NCBI GenBank assembly: GCA_031263125.1
Contig: JAISGL010000077.1
Coordinates: forward strand, 1 to 39,441
Source: Opitutaceae bacterium
GTDB lineage: Bacteria > Verrucomicrobiota > Verrucomicrobiia > Opitutales > Opitutaceae
Length of the DNA: 39,441 nt
Reading direction: 5' to 3'
This document shows positions 257 to 19,090 of the stretch, one piece after another. Below the pieces are notes generated by a model, which made no database searches, had not been told where the DNA came from, and saw only the letters and a list, made by a program, of their open reading frames with translations. The position numbers were made by a program, and so were the translations under genes. How positions within the stretch are numbered: position 1 is the first letter of the stretch; each line of letters begins with the position of its first letter.

Positions 257-609
257 TTAAATCACTTAAATCGATCCAACTCGACCCAAGCCGGGTGGCG
301 CAAACGCCGCGCGAATGCCTTTCCTGGGAGCGCGGGCATCCCTGCCCGCGCGCCGCCCTGCAAACCGGCTCACTTTGGAGGCGAATTGGAAATAACCGCA
401 AAAATCATCCCTTTGGACGATTTACGCCGGGGGCGGTTTTTTGATATTTTCACAATGTGATCCGATGAGCTTCCGCTCTTATGCGAAACCATCACACAAC
501 CTCCACCTCCCAGCCTCCACCTCCCAACCTCGCCTCCCAACCGCCTCCCAACCTCGCCTCCCAGCCTCACCTCCCAACCGCCACCCTCACTTCTCCTCCA
601 ATCCCACCT
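257..609. other. Non-coding leader upstream of the first autotransporter
   Basis: No gene is supported here. A perfect 9-bp palindrome lies at 330-351 (GCGCGGGCA, loop TCCC, TGCCCGCGC); it has neither a GTAG foot nor a T-run. At 506-577 there are six copies of CCTCCCAR with starts spaced 14, 13, 11, 13 and 13 nt apart. The strand complementary to this C-rich tract has repeated GGGAGG runs that could form a G-quadruplex. An ATG at 481 is in frame with the downstream gene, but it would put 43 Pro/Ser/Gln-rich residues before a normal signal peptide. No promoter could be assigned with confidence. Confidence 0.5.
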
Positions 610-3600
610 ATGACAACACTACGCCTGCCTTTGTCCAAGACCGCCCGTCTGACTGCCCTGTTACTGTTCTGCTGCTGCACCCTGCCCGTGGCCCATGCCT
701 TCGAGTGGGTCATTTCACCCACGGGTTCGACCGCGCTGCCCGTCGGAGGCAACACAACCGCAGGCTCCAATTTGATAAAAGACGGTGACATCATCACCCT
801 GTACACGGACCCGACCAGCGGCGGACCGACAGGCCCCGCCGCCCTCGGCAATGCGCTGATCACCTACCAGGACAACGGCGCCCTCACCCCATTCCCCCCG
901 AGCTTCACGATACGCTCGGGCGCCGGCCCCGACGATCCCGATTGGGACGGCACTTGGTACACCATCACCCATAAAAAATCACCGGCGCCGACTAACTTGA
1001 CCAGGGCCATTTCCACCTTCTCCGGCAATTCCACCATTACCCTCGTCAACGTCATTTTTGCCGAAAACATCACGGCAAACGGCTCCGGCGCGGCGATCTT
1101 TTTCGCGGCGGGCAACGCGCAACTCACCGACATGACGACCCTCACCGGCACGGCGATTTTCAGGGGCAACGGCGGCAGCAACAGCGCCATGCTTGGCGGC
1201 GCCATCCACAACGCCGCGGGCCATTTCACGCTTTCCGGCTCGTTCATCTTCGACAGCAACTTCTCCGGGCGCGGTGGCGCGATCAACACCGCCGCCAACG
1301 CCGGCAACGATTACATCCGGGGCGACATCCTGTTTGTATCGAACACCACGCAAACCCTCGGAGGCGCGTTCAACTTCACACAGTATCTGGCGACCTCCAC
1401 GGCTTTTTTTGACGGCAATATCCGGTTCATCGGCAACATGGCCAACAACGGCGGCGCCTTTGCCTCCAACATCGACGCAAACGCCAGCGCGTCCGCCGCG
1501 TGGGTGGTTTTTTCGGGCACGACCCTGTTCAAGGACAATGAGGCCACGGCAAACGGCGGCGCCATCCAGCAAGGCGCCCAGGGTCTGGTCATCGGTGGCA
1601 ACACCACCTTTGACGGCAACAAGGCCGGCGGCCTCGGCGGGGCCATCTACCAGTTCAACAACAAAAGCGGCGTGCAGGTTGCGGGCGGCGCCTTCGTCAC
1701 CCTCGACGCCACGACCGGCGACATTCTTTTCCAAAACAATCTCCATAACACGGCCATGTCCCCCGACGAACACAACGCCATGGTGCTCTATTCCGGAAAC
1801 GCCTATGTGGACGGCGGCACGACGACCGTCACGCTCAATGCCACCGGCGGCAACGTCATCTATTTCCACGACCCCATCGCCGTCTCCGACACGAACGACT
1901 ACGGCGCGCAGCAAGCCTACGTCAACGTCACGCAGACCGGCGACGGCACCGTTTTGTTTGACACCTACCAAAGCGTCATCACCCACACGACCACCCTTCA
2001 ATCGGGCACTTTCCTCCTCACCAACCGCGCCGTCTACGGCGCCTCCAACGACAAAGGCTGGTTCCAAATCGAGGACGGCGCCACGGTTGCCGGAAACGGC
2101 ACGGTGCAGGCCGGTGTCATCGGCTTCGCCGACGGCGCGCGCGTCAACGTGACCGCCGGCGGCACCCTCTCGCTCCTCGCGACCACATTCACCGGCACGG
2201 GTCTGCGCATTTCAGGCCACGGCACGATTGACGGCGCCGGCGGGCCGCCCATCCCCGCCTCGCTGGTAAGCGTCGGCTCCACCGTCTCGGAAATCCCCGG
2301 CGCGTCCGTCGGCGCCAACACCGCGCAAACACTCACCTTCGCCGCCTCGGCGCCCCTCGCGCTCGAAACCGGCGGCACCCTCGCCTTCGACATGTTTGGC
2401 GGCACAACGTCCGATCATCTTTATGCCGACGCGCTCACTTTCACCTCCGGCTCCGCCTTCATCAACCTCACCGGCATGTCGGGCACCTACAACATTCTCA
2501 CCACGCTCAGCTCCACCTTTGCCCCGGGCGATTTCACCATCCTCATCAACGGCTACATCCCCACCCAGCGTTATGCCGCCACCCCCACGATCACACCCTT
2601 CGACGTCGCGGGCAGCGAACTCAGCGTCGAATACGCGACAAAAAACATCAACATCGCCTGGACGGGCGCCGCGCAGGGCGGCATCTGGAGAAACGTGCAA
2701 ACCAGCGACTCCAACTGGACGGACAACGACGCCATCGCCCCCGAGCTGTTCTTCCTGGACGGCGACGGCGTCCTCTTCGACGACACCGCGGCATCCAGGG
2801 ATGTCTCCATCGATGCCGCCGGCGTGGTGGCGACATCGATGACCGTGGCCATCACCACCGGCAACAACTACACCTTTGCGGGATCGGGCGGCATCCGCAT
2901 CAGCAGCACCTTTGCCTTTGCCGGCACGGACGTGACACCCACCGGCAAACTCACCAAAAGCGGCGACGGCGCGCTCAACTTCACCAACACCGGCACGAAC
3001 ACCTTTGAGGACGGCATCGGGATTTCCGGCGGCGCCATCGGCTTCACCCGCGCCGCCCAGCTCGGCGACGGCGGCAACGGCATCCACTTCACCGGTGACG
3101 CCACGCTCCGCGCCAACGCCGCCGGCATCACCCTCGCAAACACCCTCGACGTCGACGCCGGAAAAACCGCCACGCTCGACACCGCCGCAAACACGCTCAC
3201 CTATGCCGGCATCTTCAATCTCAACAACACCGGCACTCTCGCCAAGACAGGCGCCGGCACACTCCGCCTCACCGCCGACAACTCCGCCAGCACCGGCGGG
3301 ACAGTCGTCAGGCAAGGCACGCTCACGCTCGACGGCGCCGATGCCAAAATCGGCGGCAACATCGACATCGCCGCCGGCGCGACCCTCGCGGGCAGCGGCT
3401 CGGCGACTGGCACGGTCAACGCCGGCCCCGGCGCATTCATCGCGCCCGGCGCCTCCAGCCTCACGACGCCCGTCACGCTCAACCTCAACAACCTCAACCT
3501 CGATTCCTCCATCCTGAGCTTCAACCTCTTCTCCACCGGCTCCAACGACACCATCAACCTCGCCGGCGCCCTCACGCTGGCCGGTACCAACAAAATCAAC

Positions 3601-6600
3601 ATCAGCCTGTTCCAGGCCGGCGTCTACAACCTCGGCAACCTCGACGCGCTCGCCGGCGTGGAAGTCACCATTGCGGGCATCGCCCAGGTCGCCGGCGCCC
3701 GCCAGACTGCCGCCGTCGTTGCCGATGGCGGCAACCTCCTGCTCCAAACCGGCGCGGACATATCGCGCGTCCTTCGCTGGACAGGCGCGACCAGCGGCAC
3801 ATGGATTTCATCCGACTCCAACTGGACCGACGGCGGCCCGACCACGCTTTACGCCGGAGGCGACCGCGTCATTTTTGACGACACCGCCCCCGCCGCCTCC
3901 CCGCACGACATCGACATCGCCGGCACCGGCCTGATGGTTTCCGACATGTTTGTGCAAGGCACATCCAGTTACTCTTTCTCCGGCGCCGGCATCACCGCCG
4001 ATCCCGCCAGCATCATATCGGGAGCAGTCATCACCACCGGCTCCGGCAGACTTATAAAGGAAGGCAGCGGCACGCTCGCCTTCACCAACGCCGCCAACAA
4101 TTTCCTCGGCGGCATCGAAATCGACGGCGGCGCGATTACCTTCACGGACGTCGCCCAGCTCGGCGGCGGCGACATCCTCTTCGGCGGCGACGCCGCGCTC
4201 GTCTCGCTCACCGGCGCGCAAACGCTCGCCAGCAACATCACGGTCGCCGCGGGCAAGACCGGCGTCATCGACGCCGGCGCAGGCGATATCGCGCTCTCCG
4301 GTTTGCTCGCCGCCGCCGGCGGATCGGGCACGCTCGCCAAACTCGGATCGGGCATGCTCGCGCTCGCAGCGGACAACACCGCCGGCGCGGAAAATCTCGT
4401 GCTCAATATCGCCGAAGGTTCCCTCCTGCTTGACAACGTCACATTCGCCGGCGCGGTTGACCTTGGCGAAAACACGACGTTCATCGGCGCCGGCGACGCC
4501 GGCACAGTCGGCGCGATGCGCGCGGCCGCCGGTTCCACGGTGCAGGTCAACGCCGGCGAATTGAATATCGGCAGTCTCCAGCTCGCCGGCGGTTCCACGC
4601 TCATCCGATCAGACACCGGGGCAGGCGTGCTTTCCAGCGCGGCCACGCTCGACGGTCTCGTTTCCGCCAGCATCACCGGCGGCACACTCGCGTTCAACGG
4701 CTCTATCAACGGCGCGGGCGGCTTCCTCAAGACCGGCGACGGCGAATTGCAGCTCTCCGGCGCCGCCGCGCTCGGCAACACCGGCGTCACGCAAATCGAC
4801 CAGGGCGCCGTGCGCATCACCGGCATATCCGGCGTCACCGCCCCCACCATTACCGAAAGTGACACCATTCCCGGCATCAACATCGCCGGCACCGTTTCGC
4901 AAAATATCATGCTCAACGGCGGCGACCTCATCTTGTCTTCCGGCACGGGTGCTGACGAGGCCACCGCCAACAACTGGTCCGGCCTGCGCCTCATCCAGGG
5001 CGCCGACTCCGCCGCGAGCACGATATCCGGCGGCAACGAAATCATCCACGTGGGCAGCGGCACGCAGGAGTACGCCATTCTCCAAGGCATCCACGTCGCC
5101 GTGAACGCCGGCAACGACACCGCCGTCCTGGGCAACACCGCCAACAATTTCACCGGCATCGTCCGCGTCGACAGCGGCACGCTCCAGGTCACCGACACCC
5201 TGCAACTCGGCGCGTTCGGCGCCGCGACCACCGCCAAGGTCGCCCTCAACGGCGGCGCGCTCCAGATCAGCGGCACCATCAACACCACCCGCGCCATCGA
5301 GCTTCGCGCCGACGCCACCGTGACGGTTGACGACGACGCAAACTCCCAGTGGAGCGCCATCACCAAACCCGCGGCCTACCCCGCGGCCAGCTTCACCAAG
5401 GCCGGCTCCGGCACGCTCACCATCGCCGGCAACAATCAGGCCACCGGCATGACCGTCGCCGAAGGCCGCTATGTCGCGTTTACGGGCAACAGCGTGAACA
5501 CGAGCGCCACGGTCAGCGTCAGCAGCGGCGCGACATTCGAGTTCAGCGCCACCACCACCGCGAACGGCGGCACGATGGGCTACGTCGGAGGCCAGCTCTT
5601 CGCGAACTCCAGCGCAGGCACGGTGAGCGCCCCCGTTGTTGGCAGCGGCACGTTGGAAATCACCAGGGGCAGACTCGTCTTCACCTCGCCCAACACGACC
5701 ATTGCAAACATCAACATCACGGGCACGGACTCAGCCGTGGTTATCAACAACAACCGCCCCGTGGCCGACTTCTCCCCCAACGGCGCGATCACCGTTGACC
5801 AAGGCGCCCTGATTCTCGCCTCGACCGGCCACAACATCGGCAACGTCGTGCTCAAGGACGGCGCCTCGCTCTCCTTCCTGATGCAGGGCACGCTGGTGGC
5901 GGCGCAGGTGACGGAGACCGGCACCATCCCCGCCTACTTCACGACCAACGGCCAGGGCTTCAAGACCGCCACGCTCGCCTCGCTCACCGCCACGGGCACC
6001 GACGGCAACCTCAACTTCAACACCAACCTCGCCTTGGGCCGCGCCGATCATCTCACGGTCAGCGCCCCGGTTTCGGGCGACTTTGTCATCGGCGTCAACA
6101 ACCACGGCGTCCTCCCCGAAACATATGCCGCGCCCCTCACGCTCCTCACCGCGCCTGACGCCAGCGACGCCACCTTCCACACGCCTCCCGACATTGATGT
6201 CGGCCTCTATAAATATGCCGTCACCACGCAAACCGGCGACGGCAAAATCGGCATTGTTGTCACCGGCACCGGAGCCATGAGCAACTCCGCCTCGCTCATC
6301 AACACCATGGCGGGCGCGCTCCCCCTCAGCTGGTTCGCCGAACTCAACAGCGTCACGCAGCGCATGGGCGAGCTGCACATGGAAACCCGCATCGACGAAG
6401 CCGGTCTCGCCACGTGGGTGCGCGGTTATGGACAGGCGTTGGAGTTCAACCGCAAAGTCAACGGCACGCCGTTCGACGAACGCCAGTTCGCCGTCGAGGG
6501 CGGCGCCGACTACAAATTCGGAGGCACGCCGCACAACATCTACGCCGGCGTTTTCTTCGGCTACGGCGAAAGCGAGCGCGACTATAACGTCGCCGGCGAG

Positions 6601-7218
6601 GGCCGCAACGAAAGCGTCTTTGGCGGCCTCTACGAAACCGTCAGCACAAAAAACGGCTGGTACCTCGACGGCGTGATCAAGCTCAACGGCTTCAAGAACA
6701 CGTTCACCGCCGTCTCCCCGACGGGCGAAACCATGACGGGCGAATACCACAACTGGGCGGCCGGCGGCTCGCTCGAATTTGGCAAATACTGCGACGTCGG
6801 CTTCGGCTGGTATCTCGAACCGCAAATCCAGGGCGCGATCACCGCCATCATGGATTCGCATTACGTGACCAGCAGCGGCATGCAGGTCGAGCTTCGCTCC
6901 GGCACCACCACGCAAGGCCGCGTCGGTTTTATGTTCGGACGCATCTTCCAAACCGGCGCCAACGGTCTCCTCCACGTTTATATCAAAGGCCACGCCGTGG
7001 CGCAGTGGACAACCAACGGCCAGATTTACGTCGTCACCCCGCACGGCGAGCACAAGCGTTACACGCCCACAATCAAGGGCGACCGCCTCGAAGTCGGCGC
7101 GGGCATCGCATGGCGCGCCTCCCGGCGCATGCAATATTTCTTCGATTTTGAAACCGCCGACGCCGATTATTATATAAAACCCTGGGGCGTGAATTTCGGC
7201 ATCCGTTGCAGTTGGTAA
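610..7218 (+). CDS. Giant autotransporter/adhesin with Pmp-like repeats and C-terminal beta-barrel
   Basis: Predicted surface protein of 2202 residues (type V secretion). Start chosen at ATG 610 because it opens directly on a Sec signal peptide (MTTLRLPLSKTARLTALLLF, ending near VAHA). Residues about 180-345 contain repeated GGA[IF] and FxxN motifs (GGAIHN, FDSN, GGAINT, FIGN, GGAF, FKDN, GGAIQQ, FDGN, GGAIYQ), the pattern of chlamydial polymorphic membrane proteins. The middle is a long passenger of autotransporter-associated beta-strand repeats (KxGxGTLxL types) with two W-x-G...SNW modules at about residues 680 and 1055. Residues about 1900-2202 form the barrel, beginning near WFAELNSVTQRMGELHM and ending in Trp rather than the usual Phe. 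It heads a co-directional cluster with TBDRs, sulfatase and galM. A role as substrate or cell adhesin is inferred; the ligand is unknown. Confidence 0.85.
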   Translation: MTTLRLPLSKTARLTALLLFCCCTLPVAHAFEWVISPTGSTALPVGGNTTAGSNLIKDGDIITLYTDPTSGGPTGPAALGNALITYQDNGALTPFPPSFTIRSGAGPDDPDWDGTWYTITHKKSPAPTNLTRAISTFSGNSTITLVNVIFAENITANGSGAAIFFAAGNAQLTDMTTLTGTAIFRGNGGSNSAMLGGAIHNAAGHFTLSGSFIFDSNFSGRGGAINTAANAGNDYIRGDILFVSNTTQTLGGAFNFTQYLATSTAFFDGNIRFIGNMANNGGAFASNIDANASASAAWVVFSGTTLFKDNEATANGGAIQQGAQGLVIGGNTTFDGNKAGGLGGAIYQFNNKSGVQVAGGAFVTLDATTGDILFQNNLHNTAMSPDEHNAMVLYSGNAYVDGGTTTVTLNATGGNVIYFHDPIAVSDTNDYGAQQAYVNVTQTGDGTVLFDTYQSVITHTTTLQSGTFLLTNRAVYGASNDKGWFQIEDGATVAGNGTVQAGVIGFADGARVNVTAGGTLSLLATTFTGTGLRISGHGTIDGAGGPPIPASLVSVGSTVSEIPGASVGANTAQTLTFAASAPLALETGGTLAFDMFGGTTSDHLYADALTFTSGSAFINLTGMSGTYNILTTLSSTFAPGDFTILINGYIPTQRYAATPTITPFDVAGSELSVEYATKNINIAWTGAAQGGIWRNVQTSDSNWTDNDAIAPELFFLDGDGVLFDDTAASRDVSIDAAGVVATSMTVAITTGNNYTFAGSGGIRISSTFAFAGTDVTPTGKLTKSGDGALNFTNTGTNTFEDGIGISGGAIGFTRAAQLGDGGNGIHFTGDATLRANAAGITLANTLDVDAGKTATLDTAANTLTYAGIFNLNNTGTLAKTGAGTLRLTADNSASTGGTVVRQGTLTLDGADAKIGGNIDIAAGATLAGSGSATGTVNAGPGAFIAPGASSLTTPVTLNLNNLNLDSSILSFNLFSTGSNDTINLAGALTLAGTNKINISLFQAGVYNLGNLDALAGVEVTIAGIAQVAGARQTAAVVADGGNLLLQTGADISRVLRWTGATSGTWISSDSNWTDGGPTTLYAGGDRVIFDDTAPAASPHDIDIAGTGLMVSDMFVQGTSSYSFSGAGITADPASIISGAVITTGSGRLIKEGSGTLAFTNAANNFLGGIEIDGGAITFTDVAQLGGGDILFGGDAALVSLTGAQTLASNITVAAGKTGVIDAGAGDIALSGLLAAAGGSGTLAKLGSGMLALAADNTAGAENLVLNIAEGSLLLDNVTFAGAVDLGENTTFIGAGDAGTVGAMRAAAGSTVQVNAGELNIGSLQLAGGSTLIRSDTGAGVLSSAATLDGLVSASITGGTLAFNGSINGAGGFLKTGDGELQLSGAAALGNTGVTQIDQGAVRITGISGVTAPTITESDTIPGINIAGTVSQNIMLNGGDLILSSGTGADEATANNWSGLRLIQGADSAASTISGGNEIIHVGSGTQEYAILQGIHVAVNAGNDTAVLGNTANNFTGIVRVDSGTLQVTDTLQLGAFGAATTAKVALNGGALQISGTINTTRAIELRADATVTVDDDANSQWSAITKPAAYPAASFTKAGSGTLTIAGNNQATGMTVAEGRYVAFTGNSVNTSATVSVSSGATFEFSATTTANGGTMGYVGGQLFANSSAGTVSAPVVGSGTLEITRGRLVFTSPNTTIANINITGTDSAVVINNNRPVADFSPNGAITVDQGALILASTGHNIGNVVLKDGASLSFLMQGTLVAAQVTETGTIPAYFTTNGQGFKTATLASLTATGTDGNLNFNTNLALGRADHLTVSAPVSGDFVIGVNNHGVLPETYAAPLTLLTAPDASDATFHTPPDIDVGLYKYAVTTQTGDGKIGIVVTGTGAMSNSASLINTMAGALPLSWFAELNSVTQRMGELHMETRIDEAGLATWVRGYGQALEFNRKVNGTPFDERQFAVEGGADYKFGGTPHNIYAGVFFGYGESERDYNVAGEGRNESVFGGLYETVSTKNGWYLDGVIKLNGFKNTFTAVSPTGETMTGEYHNWAAGGSLEFGKYCDVGFGWYLEPQIQGAITAIMDSHYVTSSGMQVELRSGTTTQGRVGFMFGRIFQTGANGLLHVYIKGHAVAQWTTNGQIYVVTPHGEHKRYTPTIKGDRLEVGAGIAWRASRRMQYFFDFETADADYYIKPWGVNFGIRCSW

Positions 7219-7336
7219 ACCGCCCCCAAGGCCAGCGCATATTCCCGTCACACTTAGCACTTAGCCCGTTAGCCCGGCAACCCTTCCCATGTGTCCCTGC
7301 ATCGACAAAATCCCATGCCGCGTAACTGACGCAGCT

Positions 7337-7471
7337 GTAGGGCCTGACCTTGTGTCAGGCCGCAAATTACCTGTGAGCCTCTTGCGCGAGCGCGGCCTGA
7401 CACAAGGTCAGGCCCTACGGCGGCACGCATGGCGGCGGGGGCACGTAGGGCGCGACCTTGTGTCGCGCCGC
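7337..7471. repeat. REP cluster, copy 2, overlapping the start of the first TonB receptor
   Basis: Three hairpins: family a at 7337-7363 (+), family a inverted at 7392-7418, and family b at 7445-7471 (+), the last with GTAG, stem GGCGCGAC/GTCGCGCC and loop CTTGT. A degenerate left terminus (GCGTAACTGACGC) lies near 7320-7333. No right terminus is visible: the unit runs straight into the coding sequence. The preferred GTG start at 7460 lies at the loop/stem junction of the family b hairpin. Confidence 0.75.
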
Positions 7472-10400
7472 GCATGGCTCCTGTTGACCGGCATGATCAT
7501 AAGCGGCGTCCTTGGCGCACAGGCCGTCGCTCCCGTTTCATTGGAGGAAACCGGTGATTCATCCCCGCCGGTGAAGGTGGAAACGTCAGCCCGGTCAGCT
7601 CCCGCGAAACCCGCCGAAAAAGTGGACGACGAAATCGTCGAACTCTCCCCATTCGTTGTGCAGGCGGGTGATGACGACGGCTACCAGGCCGCCAACACCA
7701 CCAGCGGCAGCCGCCTGAACACCTCCCTCAAGGACACCCCCGCGTCCATCTCGCCCTTCACCGAGGAGTTTCTCAGCGACGTCGGCGCGACCTCCGTCGA
7801 GGACATGCTCGCCTACACGGGAAACTCTGAAGGCGAATTTGAGGACGGCTCCGGCTTCAACGACTCGGCCTCCCGCTGGGCCAACACCACCAGCGGCCGC
7901 TTCCGCATACGCGGCATGAGCGGAAGCTCCTCGCGCGATTTCGTCAACAGCTCCATCCCCAACGACACCTACAACATTGATCGCGCCGAGGTGGCCAGCG
8001 GCCCCAATTCCATCCTCTTCGGCCTGGGGTCGCAGGGCGGCACCGTCCTCCTCTCATCAAAACGCGCCAACACGAGACGAAACACCTTTCGCGTCAAAAA
8101 CATCATGGGCACCTGGGACGGCTTCAGCACCTTGCCCTACGAACGCCTCGAAGCCGACGCAAACCTCGTGCTCATTCCCAGGAAACTCGCGTTCCGCCTG
8201 ATGGCGCTTTATCAAAACTCGGGCAGTTGGATGCGCTATTGGGTCAACGATCAAAAACGCATCTCCCCGGCGCTGACCATAAAACCCTCCAAAAACACCA
8301 CCATCCATCTCAACTACGAGCGCGGTGTTGTCGACGGCAGCACGCGTTTGAACTGGCCCGCCTACGATTCCGTCTCCGGCTGGCTCGCCGCAGGCCGCCC
8401 CCTCGTCAGCAGCCTGACCGCGCCCGTGCTCGGCGCCGCCCCCGCCGGCATGGTCCTGCTCGCTCCGGATAACAACAACGTTGACCACTACGTCTTTAAC
8501 GAAAACGACGGCACCGTTAATAATTACCGCCAGGCCTATGCGGGCGCCAGCCTTCATCCGGACTCAAATAATACAGTCCTCGCATCGCCCTCGCTCCTGT
8601 CCTACCGCGTCAGCACGCTCGGGCCGGGATCGCAGCGCAACCAGACCTTTGAAAGCTGGTCCGCCATCGTCGATCAGCGCGTCGGCGCCTTTGACTTCGA
8701 ACTCGGTTATTATCATAATCACAACGACTCGCAGGTTCTCACGGCCAGCGGCGCCGACGGACGCAGCAGCGGCCTCACCGCCGATCCCAATGTTTATATA
8801 TCAATGCCGGTCTGGAGTTCGCCATCCGATAAAGTCCCCAATCCCCGCGCCGGCCAGCTCTACATGGAGGAACAATGGTACAAAAACACCTTTGATGATA
8901 CAAACAACGTCATCCGCCTCACCATATCCAGTGATATCCAACCCGGCAAAGCGTGGGGACGCCACCGCCTGATGGGCCTTGTCGAACACGCGAAGAACGA
9001 AAGCGTCTTTATACAAAAAAATGAAATCTGGGCCGACGACAATAATGTTGTCATCAACTATAATCCCAACAGCCCCACGCCCGAAGGCAACCAGAACAGC
9101 GTCTGGCGCCGCCGCTACATCACCGAGGGCGATTTCAACACGTATTACGCGGGCGACGGACGCATCCCGACCCCTACCTTCGTCGCGGGCGACAAAACCT
9201 ACCACGGCACTTTTGTCACCCGCAAAAACGCCAGCTATCACACCACGCAGGAGACCAGCTCCTACGCGCTGGCCATCCAAAGTTACTGGTTCAAAAACAG
9301 GCTGATCACCACCCTCGGCGCGCGCATCGACAACCTCAAATTCACCAACGAAAAACAAGCCCGCATCCTCGATCCGAACGACCCGCGAATACTCAGCGGC
9401 GACAAAGTGCTCGGCGAAATGGCATTTTCCGGCGAATATAAAAAAGACAAGTACAAACCCTCCACCTATGCGGCCGGCGCGGTTTGGCACCTCTCGAAAC
9501 ATTTTTCCCTGTTCGGCAATTACAGCACCAACATCGGCCCTCCGCGCTTTGACCGCAACGTGCTGCCCTATGGCGACATCGCGCAGGCCCCCAAGGGCAA
9601 AACGACGGAGGAGGGCATCCTCGTTGACTTCCTCGGCAACGACAAAATCTTCCTCCGCATCACCCGCTTCGACACCCGCCAGCTGGGCGACAACCCCATC
9701 ATCCCGGGCAGCACTGATGCCATAAACTCCGCCCCGCTCGGCAACACGGATGTCATAACCATAAGCACCGCCCTGCATGACGCCGGCCTCATCACCGACG
9801 AACAATATCAATGGGAAGCCGTCGATTTTTCGTTCAATTCAGCCTGCCTGAACACCTATACAAAAGGCTGGGAATTCAGCCTCATCGCCAATCCCACAAA
9901 AAGAATAACATTCTCCGCGGCGGCCTCCTATAGCGATCGCAACCGCTACGACGTATTCTCGGAAGGCTTTGCCTACTTCGGTCAAAAGTTCCCGGAATGG
10001 TTTGCCCTTGCCAATGCGATGCCGGAAAGCGAACAAAAACAAACACTCCTCGACCTCCTCAATGATGAGAAGGTCATTGTTGATGGAAAACTCCAGAGTA
10101 TCGTTAATAATAACAGCGGCCAGATGGGGTCGCGCATGTGGAAAGTCGTTATAAACACCCGCTACAGGTTTCCGGACAACTTCCTGAAAGGCTTCGCCAT
10201 CGGTGGCGCCATGCGTTATCAAAGCGGCCCCGTCATCGCTTGGAACAACACAACGAAGCAAAAGACCATCGGCCAGCAAACGCTCTTCTTCGATGCCTTC
10301 ATAACCTACAGGCGCAAGATTCTGCGCGGAAAGTCCGGCATGACCATTCAGCTCAACATCAGGAATCTGACCAACAGCGACACCGTGACCATGGGCCGGC

Positions 10401-10489
10401 TCGCCTCCGGGGCCGACGACGGAGACACCCACCGCGTTTATCTCAACGAACCCCGCAATATCCGGCTCACCACCACCTTCGATTTTTAA
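7460..10489 (+). CDS. TonB-dependent outer membrane receptor (1)
   Basis: Outer-membrane beta-barrel importer, 1009 residues from GTG 7460. That start gives MSRRAWLLLTGMIISGVLGA, a textbook signal peptide. The in-frame ATG at 7289 would add 57 residues translated from repeats, and ATG 7493 would leave no charged n-region. TonB box IVELSPFVV at residues 59-67, followed by a plug (about 75-200) containing NTTSGSRLNT, RFRIRGM and VASGPNSILFGLGSQGG, then the barrel ending in TTTFDF. It is homologous along its length to the next gene, so the pair is a tandem duplication. The start codon, and probably the first codons, come from a REP hairpin. A hairpin over the start could also limit translation. 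Substrate unknown; glycan oligosaccharide is inferred from the neighbours. Confidence 0.88.
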   Translation: MSRRAWLLLTGMIISGVLGAQAVAPVSLEETGDSSPPVKVETSARSAPAKPAEKVDDEIVELSPFVVQAGDDDGYQAANTTSGSRLNTSLKDTPASISPFTEEFLSDVGATSVEDMLAYTGNSEGEFEDGSGFNDSASRWANTTSGRFRIRGMSGSSSRDFVNSSIPNDTYNIDRAEVASGPNSILFGLGSQGGTVLLSSKRANTRRNTFRVKNIMGTWDGFSTLPYERLEADANLVLIPRKLAFRLMALYQNSGSWMRYWVNDQKRISPALTIKPSKNTTIHLNYERGVVDGSTRLNWPAYDSVSGWLAAGRPLVSSLTAPVLGAAPAGMVLLAPDNNNVDHYVFNENDGTVNNYRQAYAGASLHPDSNNTVLASPSLLSYRVSTLGPGSQRNQTFESWSAIVDQRVGAFDFELGYYHNHNDSQVLTASGADGRSSGLTADPNVYISMPVWSSPSDKVPNPRAGQLYMEEQWYKNTFDDTNNVIRLTISSDIQPGKAWGRHRLMGLVEHAKNESVFIQKNEIWADDNNVVINYNPNSPTPEGNQNSVWRRRYITEGDFNTYYAGDGRIPTPTFVAGDKTYHGTFVTRKNASYHTTQETSSYALAIQSYWFKNRLITTLGARIDNLKFTNEKQARILDPNDPRILSGDKVLGEMAFSGEYKKDKYKPSTYAAGAVWHLSKHFSLFGNYSTNIGPPRFDRNVLPYGDIAQAPKGKTTEEGILVDFLGNDKIFLRITRFDTRQLGDNPIIPGSTDAINSAPLGNTDVITISTALHDAGLITDEQYQWEAVDFSFNSACLNTYTKGWEFSLIANPTKRITFSAAASYSDRNRYDVFSEGFAYFGQKFPEWFALANAMPESEQKQTLLDLLNDEKVIVDGKLQSIVNNNSGQMGSRMWKVVINTRYRFPDNFLKGFAIGGAMRYQSGPVIAWNNTTKQKTIGQQTLFFDAFITYRRKILRGKSGMTIQLNIRNLTNSDTVTMGRLASGADDGDTHRVYLNEPRNIRLTTTFDF

Positions 10490-10528: not shown

Positions 10529-13500
10529 ATGCAAACCACACACCCGCACAATAAAAAATGGATACTGTTTCCAGGCGCACTGCTGCTTTCAGCCGCGCTT
10601 GTCGCCCAGCAAGTCGCTCAACCTTCGCTCGAGGACGCGGCCGCTCCACCCGCGCCCCCGATAAAGGTCGAAACCACACCCCGCCCGGCGCTCCCGGCCA
10701 CATCCGGGACGGACGACGATGACATTGTCGAGATGTCCGTCTTCGAGGTGAACGCCGGGAAGGACGACGGCTACTCCGCCGCCAACTCAACCAGCGGCTC
10801 CCGTGTCAACACACCTCTCAGGGACCTCGCCGCCTCCATCTCCGCCTTCACGCCGGAATTTCTGGATGACATCGCCGCCAGCACCATCGACGACATCCTC
10901 AGCTACGCCGGCAACGTCGAGCTTGAATTTGAGGATGCCACCAACGGCTTTAACAACAACGAAACCCGCCGGGCCGGCAACAACAACGAACGCTTCCGTG
11001 TCCGCGGCATCGCCGCCGCCGTGCTGGTTGACGGCGTCAAGACCGCCGTTCCCATTGATGCATATAACATGGGCCGCGTTGAAATTGCCAGCGGCGCCAA
11101 TTCCATCCTTTTCGGCATTGGCGCCCAGGGCGGCGTCGTCACCTGGGCCACCAATCGCGCCAACGCGCGTCGCAACAGGCTCATCATAAGAAACACCATC
11201 GGCACTTGGAGCAGCCCCGCCGTTGACGGCATCCCCAACGAACGTCTTCTGCTGGACTATAATGTCGTCCTCATTTCCAAAAAAATGGCCTTTCGCCTCA
11301 ATGGCCTCTATCAAAACAACGGAAGCTGGCGCTACCGCCAGTTCAACGACGACAAACGCCTCGCCCCCTCCTTCATGGTGAAACCTTTCAAAAACACCAC
11401 CATCCACCTCAGCTATGAAAGCGGACGCCTCCAAAACGCCACCTCACGCTCCTTCAACAGCTACGACGGCTACTCTGCCTGGGATGCGGCCGGGCGCCCC
11501 GTAATGGACGGCTTTGGTTCAGCCTATGCCGTCCCCGGCACCTCCCAGATCAACTCCGGCGGCAACAACCCCAATTATATTTACGTGGACAACAACAGTA
11601 CAATCTATGATTTCCGCCAGGCCTACCAGGCCGTGCAGAGTGGGTCCGGCGACGTCGCTCTCGATCCCGGCATCTCCTCCTTTTATTACAGCACCGTCGG
11701 GCCTGGCGGCGTGCGCGACCAGAAATTCCACGACTACTCGTTCATCATCGAGCAGACCATCGGCAAGTTCAACTTGCAGCTTCAATACACCCACAACCAA
11801 AACGACTCCAGCGCCGTGGCCCCCGGCAATATCCGCTCTGTAATAAAGGGCGACCCCAATCTCTATCTCTCCTCCGTCAACTGGGCCACTGCCACCGGCG
11901 CCACCCTGACCAACCCTTATGCCGGCCAGCTCTACATGCAAGCCAACTGGAACCGCAACGTCAGATTTGAGAAAAACGACGCCCTCATCCTCACCGGCGA
12001 ATACACACTCAACCTCAAAAAATACGGACGTCACCGCATCATCGGCCTCCTCCAATATGCAAAAAACGAACTCAGCAGAAACATCTATGACGAAATCCTC
12101 GTCGACGACAACCAGGTTGCCATCAACAATCCCACCGATCCCCTCAATTCGTATAACAATCTCATCCGCCGCAACTATCTCAACGAGGGGGATTTCACCA
12201 CCTACTACGACGGCGCCTACTCTGGCCCCGTCTCCGGGATTGTCATAGGCGACAAAACCTACCACAGCGCCTGGGTCTCGGAAGACTCGGTCGAGGCTCA
12301 TACAAAAGCATCAATCAAATCATACATGCTCGCCGTCCAAAGTTACTTGTTCCGCGGCAGGCTCGCCACCACCATCGGGGCGCGCATCGACGAAGTCTCC
12401 TTCAAGATGGAACAACCCGGCATAATCGACAACCCCAACGATCCCCGCATCCTCGACAAAAGCCGCGTCCTCTACGACACCTGCCTCGACGGCACCTATG
12501 GTCCCTCCTACAGCATGCAACCCTTCACCTTCAGCGCCGGCGCCGTCTATCACACGCCTTTGTTCTCCGACCGCTTTTCACTCACCGCCAACTACAGTAC
12601 AAACCGCGGCATGCCCTATCTCGACAGCCGCACCGTCCTGCCCACGGGCGGGATTCCCCCGCTCACCGAAGGCAGGACCTTCGACTACGGCATCAGGGCC
12701 GACATTTTTGGCAACAACAAGCTCGTCGCCAGGCTCGTGCGATTCGACACCCAGCAGATGGGTGACGCCACCATCACCCCCAATGGCATCGGCAACGCCA
12801 GCAACGACGCCCTCGGCAGCACCAATCTCTATCGTATCTATGACGCCATGTTTTTCCTCTATCCCACCAGCCTCAATGGCGGCACCAAGCAGGCCAACTG
12901 GGGCAAGGCTCCGGCAGGCGGCTGGCTCCCCGGCACCGGCCCCGGCATGGGTCCCATGCCCGCCGGCATGTATGCCGTCGTTCCCGCATCCGGCAGGTAT
13001 CCCTACGGCACACCGCCCCAATATAATGCCGCCATGGTTGACGTGCAATCACGGGGCTTTGAATTTTCGCTCGCGGGCAGACCTGGCAAAAACATGGAAA
13101 TCCGCTGGGAGTTTTCATACTCCGACCGCAACCGCGAAAAGATATTCCAGGAGATAATCGATTATTATAGCGCCAGCATCGCCGCATGGATGGACATGGC
13201 GGACCCCGCCAAAAACGGAGGCACCACCTATCATGTCACAACCGACACGGCGGGAACCACGCAGGTGACGCTTCAGGATTTTATATGGGATCAATTATAC
13301 GGCCAGCCGCAGCTGAACGGCGACTGCCTCTACGGCGGCACCACCAGTGTCAGGAAAGGTCTCTCCAACAACCTCTACAACCAAACAGGCCGCCTCGGCG
13401 CCCGCCCGTGGAAAACCAACCTTTCCATTCGTTATAATTTTCCCAGAAACACTTTCCTGAAGGGCTTCACCGTGTGGGCCGCCGTGCGTTATCAATCCCC

Positions 13501-15357: not shown

Positions 15358-15640
15358 CTGATGTTACGCGAAAGCCAGTTTTTTGTAGGGCCTGACCTTG
15401 TGTCAGGCCGCGCACGCATGGGAGGCCACGCAGGTAATTCGCGGCCTGACACAAGGTCAGGCCCTACGGCACGCATGGCGGCAGGGGCACGTAGGGCGCG
15501 ACCTTGTGTCGCGCCGCGTATGGCGGCGGGGGCGCGATTGGCGGAAACGTCACGCATGGCGGCAGGCGCTGCGCCAAGGGACGCCTGTGGACGTTCGCGG
15601 CCTGACACAAGGTCAGGCCCTACGCGCCACGTAACATCAG
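15358..15640. mobile_element. TIR-bounded multi-REP unit, copy 3, with 7-bp flanking repeats
   Basis: Termini CTGATGTTACGCG (15358-15370) and CGTAACATCAG (15630-15640). Hairpins: family a at 15385-15411, family a inverted at 15441-15467, family b at 15491-15517, family a inverted at 15597-15623. The unit is flanked by perfect direct repeats TTATTAT at 15351-15357 and 15641-15647, which look like a target-site duplication. It begins 9 nt after the sulfatase stop codon. The frames open through it are not genes. Confidence 0.75.
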
Positions 15641-18958: not shown

Positions 18959-19090
18959 CTGATGTTACGCAGCGCGGCTCCGTAGGGCCTGACCTTGTGT
19001 CAGGCCGCGAATTACCAGTGTGGCTTCTCACGCATTCGCGGCCTGACACAAGGTCAGGCCCTGCAAAATCCGCTGGTCGCGTAACATCAC
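18959..19090. mobile_element. TIR-bounded REP pair, copy 5, with 7-bp flanking repeats
   Basis: Termini CTGATGTTACGC (18959-18970) and GCGTAACATCAC (19079-19090). Family a hairpins at 18982-19008 and, inverted, at 19038-19064; the second has a GCAG instead of a GTAG foot. Perfect flanking direct repeats TTAATAA at 18952-18958 and 19091-19097 look like a target-site duplication. The unit sits directly beside the CCACGGAG palindrome. The frame open through it is repeat-derived. Confidence 0.75.

Follow-up and report, generated by a model that had tools for sequence, protein, structure and literature searches.

The window analyzed here, meaning the whole stretch of 39,441 nt, comes from a draft Opitutaceae genome (489 contigs, 65.8% completeness). 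On its forward strand it carries an autotransporter gene (481-7218; PF03797, 1.9e-33; TIGR01414, 9.2e-52), directly followed by the open frame of a TonB-dependent receptor (7289-10489; PF07715 Plug domain, 1.5e-7) that encodes 1066 amino acids when read from its first ATG, and an intact tandem receptor paralogue comes next at 10529. At four loci (L061, L062, L063 and positions 481-10489 of the window) a TonB-receptor gene follows one of autotransporter type, making this a repeated gene pair. Three REP copies lie within the first 63 codons of the receptor frame counted from ATG 7289; beyond these, 1003 codons stay open and are conserved relative to the paralogues. The original prediction, which took the receptor's 5′ end to be supplied by a repeat, proposed comparison with orthologues lacking that repeat, and such N-termini do exist: those of the homologues and of the paralogues are repeat-free, and no REP was present within 900 nt of the start in any homologue examined. 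An insert-free allele or strain was not found among the genome-collection and same-genus searches, where a scan of the collection with the single receptor protein gave no match, a profile scan returned only 37-42% homologues, and the same-genus genomes held no receptor match at E<=1e-80.

The repeat block occupies positions 7337-7477 of the forward strand (141 nt, or 47 codons). Copy 1 (7337-7361, + strand, an exact pattern match) reads GTAG GGCCTGAC CTTGT GTCAGGCC; copy 2 (7394-7418, - strand), recognized by pattern match and folding, is inverted and pairs with copy 1 through arms at 7331-7363 and 7392-7424; copy 3 (7445-7469, + strand, a pattern match) has the sequence GTAGGGCGCGACCTTGTGTCGCGCC and carries the GGCGCGAC stem variant. 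All three match GTAGGGNNNGACCTTGTGTCNNNCC exactly, and the pattern occurs 11 times in the window versus 0 expected from 100 shuffles. Copies 1 and 2 form a 33-nt inverted repeat with 94% complementary arms, and the pair stands out energetically (7333-7425, -70.7 kcal/mol, z -10.0), whereas the hairpin of copy 3 alone, an 8-bp stem (7449-7456/7462-7469) with its loop at 7457-7461, has an energy ordinary for a GC-rich stretch (z 0.18). Repression of initiation by this last hairpin, as had been suggested, is possible, but the stronger structure is the inverted pair, which lies between 7289 and 7460. Rfam models produced only microRNA and sRNA matches in the region, all below gathering scores; we rejected these identities, as the scores reflect palindromes only.

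From 7339 to 7478 the block can be aligned end to end with locus L082 on contig C468 at 89%, and in the flanks of the 20 genomic copies with the GGCGCGAC variant, several run on past the hairpin as GCGCATGGC. The repeat sequence thus extends to 7477/7478, beyond 7471, and includes the Trp codon. Given this shared tail and the C468 alignment, the residues M-S-R-R-A-W are wholly repeat-derived and the receptor's own sequence begins with CTC at 7478. We had considered the Trp of RRAW, compared with KKW in a paralogue, as a trace of the native n-region and rejected it, because its TGG belongs to the repeat tail. On the left, (G)TAACTGATGTTACGCAGC precedes many REP copies in the genome and the window's version is cut down to GTAACTGACGCAGCT; to judge from these motifs, the unit probably starts near 7319. 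Its left edge (7319-7336, + strand) is a degraded form of ..GTAACTGATGTTACGCAGC.., and where exactly it lies is uncertain. This places the left boundary of the block to within about 18 nt and its right boundary to within 1 nt. Only one of the three frames is open through the insert, that of the receptor, and positions 7289 and 7478 are in phase. By our own estimate (one-third of frames times one-third of lengths), an open insert with in-phase flanks would arise by chance in about 1/9 of insertions, a figure that mildly favours translation through the insert; the same odds of an open insert without selection also count against a model in which the old start is retained.

Beyond the block, the native hydrophobic core and c-region LLLTGMIISGVLGAQA (7478-7525, + strand) aligns with the signal peptides of paralogues and homologues, with a predicted cleavage after AQA. 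Ahead of it, positions 7289-7318 (+ strand) encode MCPCIDKIPC and show no repeat match. With the insert taken out, the flanks read MCPCIDKIPC-LLLTGMIISGVLGAQA (also written MCPCIDKIPC-LLLTGMIISGVLGAQAVAP) and again align with signal peptides of the homologues and of the paralogues, for instance MFSKQTHGKIKLLVIHAALVFSTALFAQ in a paralogue. The in-frame starts near the 5′ end are ATG 7289, GTG 7352, GTG 7373, TTG 7382, GTG 7460, TTG 7484 and ATG 7493. The original prediction favoured GTG 7460 (7460-7462, + strand), and much of its description was accurate: the codon is in the receptor frame and inside the REP hairpin (7445-7469), it is the only one of the starts listed to give a signal peptide of normal length (an n-region of 6 amino acids with charge +2, then LLLTGMIISGV), and its first residues are read from the repeat before the hydrophobic core follows.

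Start contexts point elsewhere. An SD-like motif preceded just 1 of 61 unambiguous ATG starts collected from 641 kb of the 3.9 Mb genome; their leaders are G-poor and C-rich, often with CC right before the ATG, and most homologues from other Opitutaceae have the same leader type. Some other Verrucomicrobia have been described as SD-scarce (PMC10783764). Scored against 58 clear starts, after exclusion of the window's own starts, the C-rich, SD-less leader of ATG 7289 reached a PWM score of 0.99 (14th percentile of the 58), whereas GTG 7460 scored -5.85, which is background-like (the mean of all ATGs is -5.45), and its leader has no SD-type or C-rich stretch and contains 5 G in 14 nt. To unfold the initiation region takes 9.7 kcal/mol at 7289 versus 27.1 at 7460; the median cost for the 58 clear starts is 4.3 kcal/mol, and none of them exceeds 14.3. 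ATG 7289 lies 70 nt past the autotransporter stop and GTG 7460 lies 241 nt past it; the stop-to-ATG gaps of the three paralogous autotransporter-receptor pairs in the same genome are 41, 77 and 143 nt. The claim that the insertion removed the original start was accordingly not borne out: ATG 7289 shares the receptor's open frame, is placed as in the paralogues, which start equivalently, and has the leader of a real start, while GTG 7460 looks like background and is costly to open. Loss of the original start is thus improbable, and ATG 7289 is probably that start, kept in front of the repeat.

We favour, with somewhat better than even confidence, an in-frame REP insertion that separated the native n-region from the hydrophobic core and left the original start in place. 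A composite GTAG-REP unit, comprising the inverted pair and the third REP, would have entered the signal-peptide segment between ATG 7289/MCPCIDKIPC and the native core LLLTG... (from 7478), sparing the old start, and the insert would have been in frame and open through chance or selection. Translation from ATG 7289 would then set some 47-53 repeat-encoded residues ahead of the hydrophobic core, and GTG 7460 within the repeat would serve as a weak secondary start at best. We infer the insertion event, the use of ATG 7289 and a reduced or altered export or expression. Because a hydrophobic core preceded by 63 residues is abnormal for a Sec signal peptide, export of the form begun at 7289 may be impaired; the same abnormality counts against a retained start, as do the zero net charge of MCPCIDKIPC, the 10 codons of supposed native sequence left at 7289, which are too few for a homology test, the low coding score from 7265 to about 7440, and the below-average quality of ATG 7289, with only 7% of real starts harder to open.

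It is unlikely, in our assessment, that the repeat instead replaced the old 5′ end, making GTG 7460 the present start and MSRRAW-LLLTGMIISGVLGAQA the product. The idea that an inserted repeat was adopted as a new 5′ end stands as far as a repeat cluster does lie at the 5′ end of a receptor whose homologues and paralogues are repeat-free, and the normal-length signal peptide with its +2 n-region, available from no other in-frame start, speaks for it; the new start itself does not fit, given the poor context and 27 kcal/mol opening cost of GTG 7460 and the presence upstream of an ATG that is in the same frame and has a normal leader. A possible parallel in the same genome is a GH106 alpha-L-rhamnosidase gene on contig C67 (L106:4347-7217, - strand) that seemingly starts at a repeat edge: its ATG abuts a REP unit, and the protein begins ATGCTGATCGCGCTC right at the edge of that unit. 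Homologues sharing 74-77% identity start with MTRRIPGKFIGVLAAAIACLL (one of them at 77%) or MTRRIPGSFIGALAAVIGCLL, and a same-genus one at 77% starts with MKPTAAILFICLFAIAFL; their signal peptides are longer, with n-regions that are charged or normal, and by comparison the C67 gene seems to have lost its n-region. Since its start is also hard to open (14.8 kcal/mol), the gene may represent a second damaged signal peptide and not one that was adopted. We regard it as distinctly improbable that REP units repeatedly enter and rewrite the signal-peptide n-regions of exported proteins in this lineage, giving them a new start or n-region, a reading with two cases behind it, the receptor and the C67 gene.

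The insert might also have largely inactivated the receptor, with the inverted REP pair blocking translation or directing mRNA processing, the signal peptide failing, and the paralogue at 10529 carrying on. The -70.7 kcal/mol hairpin comes only about 40 nt past ATG 7289, no available start is free of a handicap in length or structure, and the tandem paralogue is intact; against this, the remaining 1003 codons are open and conserved, so any decay would be recent, and we hold such an outcome to be rather improbable. There is very little chance that two contig pieces were wrongly joined at a repeat, a concern raised by the presence of about 580-680 REP copies in a draft of 489 contigs that is 65.8% complete, for the joined neighbours form the same gene pair at three other loci and the composite and its best copy are distinct sequences (89%).

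Genome-wide, the REP is a dispersed, high-copy element, with 579 copies carrying the GTAG head (291+288) and 681 when the GTAG is not required, and with 0 copies in three same-genus genomes. The GTAG adjoins a palindrome with an 8-bp stem, within the 6-9 bp range, and a 5-nt loop. In the 641 kb of the 3.9 Mb genome surveyed for flanks, coding sequence lay on both sides of 0 of the 57 REP clusters with enough flank, versus about half of random points, which marks the family as mostly extragenic; the window cluster is one of five among the 57 that have coding sequence nearby on one flank, and a position such as that in the receptor is thus uncommon. A habitual placement of these REPs inside genes was rejected on the same count. 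Elsewhere, where long open frames overlap REPs, the coding signal mostly starts well past the repeat.

A useful reference is Opitutus terrae, which we take to belong to the same bacterial family as the source genome. This species has the most intragenic GTAG repeats, and GTAG REPs inside ORFs are found more at the NH2 end than at the COOH end, with the caution that many N-terminal REPs may be extragenic and the starts mis-called (Di Nocera et al. 2013, PMC3733652). The receptor copies resemble the GTAG-tagged families in their GTAG head, short palindrome, inverted dimers and high copy number (PMC3733652); unlike those families, they match no named one, and as a group of three they interrupt a signal peptide. 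REPs at N-terminal coding regions have already been described, and the receptor case is not new in kind. It does offer a clean test case for REP insertions at protein N-termini: the repeat is specific to the lineage, the upstream start was probably retained, and the same genome contains paralogues free of the repeat. True use of the n-region encoded by the repeat would mean that a mobile repeat had remodelled a protein-export signal. It also carries a caution for SD-less genomes, where a plausible signal peptide may indicate the wrong start.

The Rickettsia palindromic elements, palindromic repeats that sit in frame in protein genes and contribute repeat-encoded residues (review PMC10969869), are similar in being in-frame palindromic insertions in a protein gene, with the repeat residues here predicted from the frame. 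Those elements are often in genes and encode a conserved peptide, and a translated repeat in many unrelated genes was not seen among the 57 clusters of this genome. For REPIN/RAYT systems, few Y1 transposase copies are expected. Like such systems (PMC3116915), the genome combines an inverted REP pair with Y1 transposases; unlike them, it has 42 Y1_Tnp matches (RAYT/IS200-like, about 350 aa, for example L088 and L089), and a REP of this family was nearby at only 1 of the 10 loci inspected. The NF047646 model scored 60 bits, below its cut-off of 80.

Further inverted REP pairs belonging to this family occur in the window at 157-239, 15385-15623 and 18982-19064. The group at 15385-15623 also has the +, -, + order, with the GGCGCGAC variant third and a fourth REP after it. 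Many REP pairs across the genome are bracketed by a second palindrome, GCGTAACATCAG...CTGATGTTACGC, as on the minus strand of L106 near 8100; the REP dimer may be only part of the mobile unit.
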